Assembly (NCBI GenBank): GCA_947650365.1
Contig: OX393549.1
Location: 33,993,075-34,057,074 of the forward strand
Source: Chamaelirium japonicum
Lineage: Eukaryota; Streptophyta; Magnoliopsida; Liliales; Melanthiaceae
Direction of reading: 5' to 3'
Length of the DNA: 64,000 nucleotides
The position numbers and the translations under genes are program-made. Below, piece by piece: positions 37,271 to 40,071 of the stretch. The notes beneath the pieces were generated by a model. It saw only the letters and a list, made by a program, of their open reading frames with translations, did not search any database and was not told the origin of the DNA. Within the stretch, counting starts at the first letter, position 1, and each line of letters starts with the position of its first letter.

Positions 37271-37636
37271 AGTAGTGATACATTGCGGCGGGTAACATGC
37301 GGGCTTAACGTGCGGCGACCCCTTCGGAGGTATTTTTGGGATTTTTTTTTTTGGGAATTGATCACCCACCCTTGGATTGGACACACAAAAAATTTCAGCT
37401 CGATCCAAGACTTGCAGGCCGTCCAAATGTGTTGATCTTTTATCGGTCGTTCAATTTTTTCGTCATTTTGATCAACACATTTGTACGGTCTATAGGTCTT
37501 GGATTGGGCTAAAAATTTTTGTGTGTCCAATCCAAGGATGGGTGATCAATCCCCCAAAAAAAACATCCCGAAAATACCCCCGAAGGGGGTGCCGCATGTT
37601 AAGCCCGCATGTTACTCGCCGCAATGTATCACTACT
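37271..37636. mobile_element. Foldback element M1 next to TA and CT/TA microsatellites
   Basis: The long inverted arms begin AGTAGTGATACATTGCGGCG (37271) and mirror at the right end (37617-37636). The arms pair for well over 100 bp with few mismatches, through CATGCGGGCTTAAC and TTGGATTGGACACACAAAAA segments, around a central GTTGATC palindrome. The left flank is (TA)n at 37245-37258 plus about 12 bp; the right flank is (CT)n(TA)n at 37635-37702. There is no coding capacity. Confidence 0.8.
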
Positions 37637-37702
37637 CTCTCTCTCTCTCTCTCTCTCTCTCTCTCTCTATATATATATATATATATATATATATATATAT
37701 AT
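37635..37702. repeat. CT/TA compound microsatellite
   Basis: (CT)n to about 37668, then (TA)n to 37702. Confidence 0.95.
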
Positions 37703-39108
37703 AAAATTTTAATTATCCAAATTTTTTTTTGATGGACTGCCCAAGCGGTCATAGGACACTACACTAGAGCAAGGACTCAAGTCCCACAGATTGGAACCGG
37801 CAGGGGAGAGGGAGTAAAACTTTGGTATAGCCGTGATATCGCTGGTATCACGGATCAATCACGAACCTCGGAGATGACTTCTCTCTTTACAATTGTCGTT
37901 TGTATCAGAAAAATCGATGACGTGCAGTTGGGGCTGAGTGTGACGCACATGTGGCATTGGTGTCATCGTGTGGCTATGATGCACCTATCGTGGTGCTCAA
38001 GGGGGGAAACTCTCCGACTTTGGAGTTTTAATTATTATTAGAAAGAATTGTCTTAGTTGTTATTCGGTCCTAATGGATACTTGAGTTGGGAACGATATAC
38101 ATCAGATGGGATAAGCGGTCACACTCGTGGTTGGACATAACACGTTTGTATCAGTATGTTGGTCGAGAAGTCATGCTTGGCTTAGAATAAGGTATTGGTG
38201 CTTGTGGATTTTTATTGAATTGGTAGGAATTTTGAATGAGTCTTTCGAGGTTTGTATATCGGTGGGACCCACTTCTTTCTTTTTGGTGTCATACCAAAAG
38301 TGATATGGACCATCCGATTGGTTTTTCCTCTGTTAACGGATAGTCCAACATCGATAAAGGAGGCACTCATCATCCGCTTAATATACCCGCTCTGGATCTT
38401 CCCTTACAATCCAGGTTTTGGGTGTGAGGATATCTAACACCCTCAATCTTATAGTTCCAACCAGAATTCATTTGGTTATCTAGAATAATATTTGGAGCAT
38501 AAGACTGAGGGAAATTTAATCAGATGGTCTATATCGGTTTGTTATGATATTAAAACAGAGCTTAGGAGCCGTGGTCTCGTCTTGTGGGAGCCAAGGTCGT
38601 GCGAGCCGCCTATACTCCATGACTTGATGCCGCCCGAGGCGCTAATTAGGGCCAATCATTATACATCGGATGACTGAATATACTTATTTTTAATTATTAT
38701 TATTATAGTTTATAAAGGTGGTCATAGTTGTTAATTGGTCCTAATGGATGTTTGACTTGGGGATGTTGAGTGAACGGATGAATGATCGACCGCACTCTAG
38801 TGGTGTTGATTGGACAAAACATGATAGACAACTCTGTGGCGGTTATGTATATGGGACTGATCTCTATCCGCAGTCAGCATTCTAATAAGAATCCCGTACA
38901 ATTTTGGGGGATTTTGCCATCCATCCTCTTAATAAACTTTTAGTTATATTAAAGACAAACAAAACTTTCATATTAAGAGTGATCCCTAGTTCATACTTTA
39001 ATCGTAAAAAATCCAACATCCAGTAAAATGGCTCATATGCCCTTCCATAACACGACAAAAAAGTTTTAAAATTTCAAAACCTTTTTACCGTGTTGTCAAA
39101 CCCTAACC
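37703..39108. other. Intergenic DNA with diverged duplicated segments
   Basis: A phrase like GTTAATTGGTCCTAATGGATG occurs at about 38058-38080 and 38728-38750 with similar surroundings (ACTTGAG/ACTTGGGGA, CACTC-GTGGT). This suggests an old local duplication of about 670 bp period. No gene or RNA gene is supported. Confidence 0.4.
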
Positions 39109-39187
39109 CTATATATATATATATATATATATATATATATATATATATATATATATATATATATATATATATATATATATATATATA
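39109..39187. repeat. TA microsatellite left of foldback M2
   Basis: About 80 bp of pure TA ending directly at the GGGGGCGG end of the foldback element. Confidence 0.95.
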
Positions 39188-39576
39188 GGGGGCGGCTGAG
39201 GTGCAGCAAGAACGCTGCACCTCAGGCTTGTTTTACCTATCTAGAAGTTTTGAAATTTGATGAAATTTAGTGAGGGTGTTGTCTAGGGTAAGATGATCAT
39301 CCTCACAAATTTTCATCAAATTTCAAAACTTCTAGGGGGGTCAAATGGTTGAAGCAAAAACTACAGATTTTAACGGTGACTACGGACGGCTGATTTTGCT
39401 TCGACCATTTGACCTGCCTAGAAGTTTTGGAATTTGATGAAAATTGATAAGGATGATCACCCTACCCTAGACAACACCCTCACCAAATTTTATCAAATTC
39501 CAAAACTTCTAGGTAGGTAAAACAAGCCTGAGGTGCAACGTTCTTGCTGCACCTCAGGTCCAGCATCCCCGCCCCC
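39188..39576. mobile_element. Foldback element M2 inserted in a TA microsatellite
   Basis: The ends are GGGGGCGG (39188) and CCGCCCCC (to 39576). The arms share CTGAGGTGCAGCAAGAACG, a GCTGCACCTCAG mirror, CTTGTTTTACCTA, CTAGAAGTTTTG and GGTGTTGTCTAGGGTA, pairing over more than 120 bp. Each arm itself contains a small hairpin (GAGGTGCAGC with GCTGCACCTC). TA repeats touch both ends. There is no coding capacity. Confidence 0.85.
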
Positions 39577-39711
39577 ATATATATATATATATATATATAT
39601 ATATATATATATATATATATATATATATATATATATATATATATATATATATATATATATATATATATATATATACAGAGAGAGAGAGAGAGAGAGAGAG
39701 AGAGAGAGAGA
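39577..39711. repeat. TA then GA compound microsatellite between M2 and M3
   Basis: About 99 bp of TA to 39675, then about 35 bp of GA ending at foldback M3. Confidence 0.95.
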
Positions 39712-40071
39712 GGATACGGGGTATAGGCTGACAGCCTATTTTGACGAAATGAGCAGCCACCCGTTTGATGCCCCTAGGAGTCTTAGAATGTGCTGATTTT
39801 TTGTGTGCATATGCACCTTAGATTAGATAGAACACCCACAAAAAATCAGCAAATTCTAAAACTTTTAGGGACATCAAATGTAATATTTCACATTAACGGT
39901 GACAATGAAAGCTCGATAAAACATCTAACATTTGATGCCCCTAGGAGTTTTAGAATGTGTTGATTTTTTGTGAGTGTTCTATCTAAGATAAGGTACTTAT
40001 GCTCACAAAAAATCAACACATTCTAAGAGTCCTAGGGCAATCAAATGGGTGGCTGCTCATTTCCCGTTTCC
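39712..40071. mobile_element. Foldback element M3 between TA/GA and CT/TA microsatellites
   Basis: The inverted arms contain AAATGAGCAGCCACCC, then TTTGATG-CCCTAGGA, then TTAGAATGTG-TGATTTTTTGTG. Each arm also holds a second inverted copy of the inner part, so it is a palindrome within a palindrome. The left end retains GGCTGACAGCCTATTTTGACG. The right end lacks the matching segment here, but it survives in the copies near 44020 and 47545. GA/TA lie outside on the left and CT/TA on the right, so the flanks are mirrored too. Confidence 0.8.

Follow-up and report, generated by a model that had tools for sequence, protein, structure and literature searches.

The window analyzed here, a 64,000-nt stretch of Chamaelirium japonicum DNA, contains a GT47 exostosin gene (35288-36932) and a minus-strand ORF with an ACR9-like ACT domain (within 54264-54674), both in keeping with plant DNA, together with several kinds of repeats. 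Two direct repeats of 2.34 kb (24256-26595 and 31985-34326), 99% identical and 7.7 kb apart, resemble a young LTR retrotransposon. In a segmental duplication of ~3.6 kb (10303-13862 and 15956-19550), two main blocks are 88-90% identical, AG arrays differ in length between the copies, and a tandem array of 5.8 copies of a 170-bp unit (14741-15735) lies between them. Neither an Rfam scan (gathering threshold) nor a tRNA scan of the window gave a hit.

Foldback elements

The first-pass annotation of this DNA had claimed three foldback elements within 2.8 kb, and all three, denoted M1 to M3, are real, with arms of 141-167 nt that are 87-91% complementary and with folding energies far beyond those of shuffled sequences. 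M1 (37271-37634, 364 bp) is a simple long hairpin, the 167-nt arms of which, located by an inverted-repeat scan at 37271-37437 and 37470-37636, are 89% complementary and separated by a 32-nt spacer. The same scan yielded 164-nt arms for M2 (39188-39576, 389 bp, with the termini GGGGGCGG), at 39196-39359 and 39394-39557, 91% complementary and with a 34-nt spacer, and 141-nt arms for M3 (39713-40070, 358 bp), at 39746-39886 and 39923-40063, 87% complementary and with a 36-nt spacer. The outer limits of the three elements were set from the flanking tracts. In M2 and M3, every arm is itself an imperfect hairpin, hence four similar segments per element; in M2, a masked inverted-repeat scan places these inner hairpins at 39241-39335 and 39408-39522. 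Folded as single-stranded DNA, the M1, M2 and M3 hairpins have z-scores of -28.6, -24.9 and -23.4, respectively, and in each case, none of 100 dinucleotide shuffles folded as well.

A fourth foldback, M4 (55045-55191, 147 bp), is short and weak, and continues rightward as CTCTCTATATATG. Its inverted repeat was detected at 55066-55165 in the masked scan (75%, 63.5 bits); the hairpin has a z-score of -2.7, and 2 of 200 shuffles fold equally well. M1-M3 are strong examples, and M4 is a weak example, of short non-coding elements with terminal inverted repeats (TIRs). M4 lies ~370 bases from the ACR9-like ACT ORF and is perhaps located within an intron or beside the gene (54264-55191). Another inverted-repeat structure, a 2-kb element at 61056-63140, has repeats of ~350 nt (70%) that end in CCACTACATTGA/TCAATGTAGTGG and is possibly another transposon. 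This element was rejected as a partner of M1-M4: it has no TA flanks, and the similarity of its left arm to M1, M2, M3 and M4 was reached by 300, 111, 198 and 285 of 300 shuffles, respectively.

The neighboring elements had been described as belonging to unrelated families. This does not hold for M2 and M3, which have in common the central word TTAACGGTGAC and a module of ~110 nt with 70-71% identity (78 of 111 and 81 of 114 alignment columns in the two orientations); the alignment score of 57 was reached by none of 5,000 shuffles and by none of 1,000 random pieces of the window. A similarity between M1 and M2 was rejected, with 615 of 5,000 shuffles reaching its score. A weak similarity between M1 and M3, with a score of 34 that was reached by 2 of 5,000 shuffles and by none of 2,000 window pieces not overlapping M1, runs through the core, and the motif CAAATG/CATTTG is found in M1, M2 and M3 at 27, 32 and 27 nt from the center, respectively. 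Judging from these alignments, M1 may have a core in common with M2 and M3, and it differs from both through most of its length. M4 resembles M1-M3 no more than shuffled sequences do. It appears doubtful that M1, M2 and M3 form a single superfamily in which the hairpin core is conserved and the arms have been exchanged. If they did, TA-seated foldbacks would diversify through the swapping of terminal arms around a core, and such exchange could explain the unrelated look of neighboring families.

Microsatellite flanks

As originally noted, M1, M2 and M3 each have TA arrays at or near both ends; these arrays measure 13 to 99 bp. The smallest of these is the left flank of M1, where just 13 bp of TA, (TA)6.5 at 37246-37258, precede 12 nt without GA and then the arm; on the right, a microsatellite scan found (CT)17 followed by (TA)18 (37635-37703). 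TA does contact M2 on both sides, as (TA)39 on the left (39110-39187) and (AT)49.5 on the right (39577-39675). The latter array is at the same time the left flank of M3, such that M2 and M3 are linked by it without nesting; M1, 1.4 kb from them, has no such link. A single C or CA separates the AT array from (AG)18 at the left end of M3 (39677-39712), and on the right side of this element, (CT)13 is followed by (TA)11 (40071-40117), so that the two flanks are mirror images, exactly as had been claimed. To the left of M4 lies (AT)44.5 followed by (AG)28 with one interruption (54901-55044). Its right flank, CTCTCTATATATG, is a very short CT-TA stretch of few repeat units, below the 12-bp cut-off for arrays.

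Reading outward, the order of element, GA/CT and TA is seen on the right of M1, on both sides of M3, on the left of M4 and, very briefly, on its right. Thus, TA is outside and GA/CT inside at five of the six ends of M1, M3 and M4, the exception being the left end of M1, which is free of GA; M2 has no GA/CT at either end.

The question of whether the GA/CT tracts belong to the element or to the target was examined on these flanks, where mirror polarity is clear at M3 and brief at M4. A single target tract could not yield TA-GA...CT-TA mirror flanks, unless it was itself palindromic. Because the M3 flanks are mirror images, the GA/CT tracts were assigned to the element ends, from which they most likely grew, and their interpretation as target sequence was set aside. 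TA is outermost and runs into unique DNA, as a target would. The same interpretation was reached for microsatellite-associated elements of pineapple, in which the consensus mostly begins with GA and ends with TC, GA arrays occur at the 5' ends and TC arrays at the 3' ends, and slippage following insertion was proposed (PMC8449440). At the present locus, GA at the 5' end and TC at the 3' end, inside TA, are found at both ends of M3, the right end of M1, the left end of M4 and, with few units, its right end, and are not found at the left end of M1 or in M2.

Copies of M3 in tandem duplicates

The DNA to the right of M3 is tandemly duplicated (39838 to 43853 to 47317 to 50873), in units of 4.0, 3.5 and 3.6 kb that we denote U1, U2 and U3. 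The duplication junction, at ~39838, falls within the left arm of M3, with ACAAA common to the joined sequences; therefore, U2 and U3 carry M3 minus its left end. With the tandem-duplication breakpoint (39838, 43853, 47317, 50873) inside the M3 left arm, foldback arms may be fragile here.

The M3 right flank sequence is found again at 44056-44154 and at 47576-47698, and the tract lengths differ among the copies: (CT)13(TA)11 in U1, (CT)18(TA)32 next to the truncated M3 of U2 (43853-44154), and (CT)19(TA)43 next to that of U3 (47317-47698). These two regions, being truncated M3 in tandem duplicates, were rejected as extra insertions or empty sites. A further 56 bp of the M3 right arm is missing in U2, and U1 lacks 26 bp near the right end that are present in U2 and U3 and match the left end of M3. 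Between U2 and U3, the identity is 98.2% over the 166 nt adjacent to the tracts and 98.9% over 471 nt. The identity of U1 to U2 and U3 is 80-81% in the same 166 nt, 95-96% in the M3 remnants, and 92-97% in longer blocks further along the unit; possibly, the first array unit in U1 is not the true counterpart. The simplest reading is that the CT and TA tracts predate the duplication and that their lengths have altered since.

Association of foldbacks with TA arrays

Of the eight ends of M1-M4, seven, that is, all but the right end of M4, have a TA array within 60 nt, and six have one within 40 nt. When four such elements were placed at random in the window, with TA arrays of at least 12 bp taken into account, neither value was reached in any of 200,000 sets; this placement test is post hoc because M1-M3 were given for their flanks and M4 was encountered while reading a TA array.

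Because M1-M4 had been chosen with their flanks known, a less biased inverted-repeat scan was added, with dinucleotide arrays masked, a span below 2,500, an arm of at least 25 and the low-complexity filter on. At a cut-off of 60 bits, which was picked after the list had been seen, five independent foldbacks were detected, namely, M1, M2, M3, M4 and 61056-63140; the remaining rows at or above 60 bits are inner hairpins or M3 duplicates and were not counted as independent. Four of these five have TA flanks; M4 has an array of at least 12 bp on just one side. The strong foldback at 61056-63140 has no TA flank, and neither do the next two by score (23230-23734 and 20041-20111).

Viewed from the arrays, eight of the nine TA arrays in the window adjoin a foldback or a truncated M3 duplicate, or six of seven once the duplicates are merged, and a single orphan array has no foldback (49140-49156). 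Of the 29 GA/CT arrays in the window, 22 are away from foldbacks, and the shortest distance between any of these and a TA array is 176 nt. The other seven lie beside foldbacks; six of them are at most 2 nt from TA, and the seventh continues one of these past a single-base interruption.

Could the locus be a product of chance or local duplication, that is, a TA-rich stretch that happens to contain hairpins, or a single element copied in place? The region is rich in simple repeats, M2 and M3 have a module in common, and M3 recurs in two tandem duplicates, all of which would be compatible with such an origin. Against it, M2 and M3 are just 70-71% alike over ~110 nt, M1 is different through most of its length, the hairpin energies of M1-M3 are far outside the shuffles, and the TA association was matched by none of the 200,000 random placements (post hoc). 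We consider this origin extremely improbable.

Another possibility is that the TA repeats are part of the mobile unit rather than the target of a transposase, for example, as filler in a circular intermediate that would integrate through homologous recombination between microsatellites. TA carrying was proposed for the SaTar elements because their flanks often misfit cut-and-paste transposition (PMC5907723) and is again given as an alternative for the MiMs of carrot (PMC8227079). In the window, the M3 flanks depart from a simple TA-TA target, and TA arrays are rarely seen apart from foldbacks (of 7 independent arrays, 6 adjoin one). Conversely, the TA lengths on the two sides of M1 and of M4 are very unequal, and empty sites described in other plants point to TA as a target: in Medicago, these are TA runs with a mean of nine repeats, compared with 11.7 to 15 beside insertions (PMC4486113), and among the Micron sites of rice chromosome 1, 20 of 51 are unoccupied TA in indica (PMC5907723). 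On balance, TA carrying seems improbable. The first-pass annotation had offered two alternatives, a shared TA-targeting transposase or elements that carry and seed microsatellites at their ends, and both seem to be partly true, with a TA-preferring insertion process and with GA/CT derived from the element ends.

Discussion

Hairpin MITEs inserted in TA repeats have already been described in rice, maize, barrel medic, guayule, carrot and pineapple, and by their anatomy and the published descriptions, M1-M3 appear to be new members of this known class. TA-microsatellite flanks are found within 60 nt at 7 of the 8 ends of M1-M4, and different elements are joined by a microsatellite without nesting in the case of M2 and M3, as in the arrays and clusters reported for the class. 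The occurrence of different TA-seated families side by side is also on record, since SaTar arrays (PMC5907723) and Ac-mMITE clusters (PMC8449440) have been published.

Above all, the pattern of the locus appears to match the pineapple Ac-mMITEs. Ac-mMITE-1 and -2 are described with TA flanks, GA 5' and TC 3' ends, non-nested clusters linked by TA, and families with partly common sequence, comparable to M2 and M3; their sizes are 510-570 and 210-270 bp, as against 364, 389, 358 and 147 bp here, and the likeness is one of description (PMC8449440). According to the same source, 46.1% of the full-length elements in pineapple are clustered, and 9/10-bp duplications are seen in 1,435 copies that lack microsatellites on one side or on both. 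The SaTars, known from guayule, rice, sorghum and citrus, are characterized as non-autonomous Mutator-like elements that target microsatellites and make up arrays in which unrelated elements follow one another without nesting; gSaTar3, 4, 8, 12 and 13, at ~380-440 bp and with TIRs of 120-180 nt, are dimensioned as are the elements here, and the mixed-family, non-nested arrays joined by microsatellites are likewise similar by description (PMC5907723). The SaTars also include members with 10-bp duplications. Micron, with which the first-pass annotation aptly compared the locus, is counted among the SaTars (PMC5907723); it corresponds in class, having a TA-microsatellite seat and a length of ~380 bp, again a likeness of description (PMC5907723, PMC12550479, PMC4486113). 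In carrot, 15 families of MITEs in TA stretches (MiMs) are reported from one genome, and these too are similar by description (PMC8227079).

In form, M2 is closest to MuTAnT of Medicago truncatula, a 292-bp foldback that sits in TA arrays and consists of four similar segments, with TIRs of 144 bp and GGGG/CCCC ends (PMC4486113). The MuTAnT TIR mask, GGGGTTTGCTAGAACA, differs from the M2 termini, GGGGGCGG, and no autonomous partner was seen at the present locus. MuTAnTs are described as Mutator-like foldbacks, 90% of which are 200-300 bp long; for the 14 of 218 copies that are not within perfect TA arrays, the flanking sequences point to 9-nt duplications (PMC4486113).

Taken as a whole, it is likely that M1-M3, and probably M4, are non-autonomous, microsatellite-associated foldback MITEs of the MiM/Micron/SaTar/Ac-mMITE kind, inserted in TA and most likely derived from Mutator. 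Another potential source of MITEs with TA at their ends is the Tc1/mariner superfamily, in which case Stowaway-like elements with a TA target duplication would have landed by chance in TA-rich DNA. Stowaway elements generate a TA target duplication, and TA is present at the element ends here. However, the usual Stowaway form does not include arms of 141-167 nt, GGGGG or GA ends, or long TA arrays, which makes the present elements atypical in each of these respects. Moreover, the families seated in TA arrays are assigned to Mutator-like elements in PMC8449440, PMC5907723 and PMC4486113. A Stowaway-like origin therefore seems highly improbable.

Mutator descent of M1-M4 is proposed by analogy, because a search of the 20 nt beyond the TA arrays found no 9-10 bp target duplication. 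Such a result would be expected if the duplication were hidden within TA. No transposase domain, of the mudrA type included, was detected in 20 of the 25 stop-to-stop ORFs of at least 130 aa in the window; the other five overlap the GT47 gene. Searches for an exact 21-base word of M3 in viral_contigs and for an exact 25-base word of M2 in genome_contigs yielded no matches, as expected for plant DNA.

Under the Mutator-like foldback MITE scenario, M1-M4 would have been moved in trans by a transposase, each entering a TA repeat such that the target duplication is hidden among the TA units. The GA/CT tracts would belong to, or would have arisen from, the element termini, and the TA arrays would have grown longer after insertion, by slippage. 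Repeated insertion into TA that came from earlier insertions would then produce a non-nested array, such as M2 and M3 with their one TA array. One published result counts against this explanation: in a survey of 207 plant genomes, Micron-like MITEs were found mainly in Poaceae and Rosaceae and, with few exceptions, were absent from other species, a distribution that fits poorly with a widespread class (PMC12550479). Other points against it are the weak fold and short right flank of M4, the GA-free left end of M1 with its 13 bp of TA, and the strong foldback at 61056-63140 that is not seated in TA.

The published picture of TA-seated MITEs is unchanged by this locus, which is a good but ordinary example of the class. 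The mirrored GA/CT tracts of M3 suggest, from anatomy alone, that these tracts belong to the element ends and not to the target, and the three M3 copies present one and the same insertion with different tract lengths. The locus is a clear natural example of TA-targeting hairpin transposons stacking at one site.
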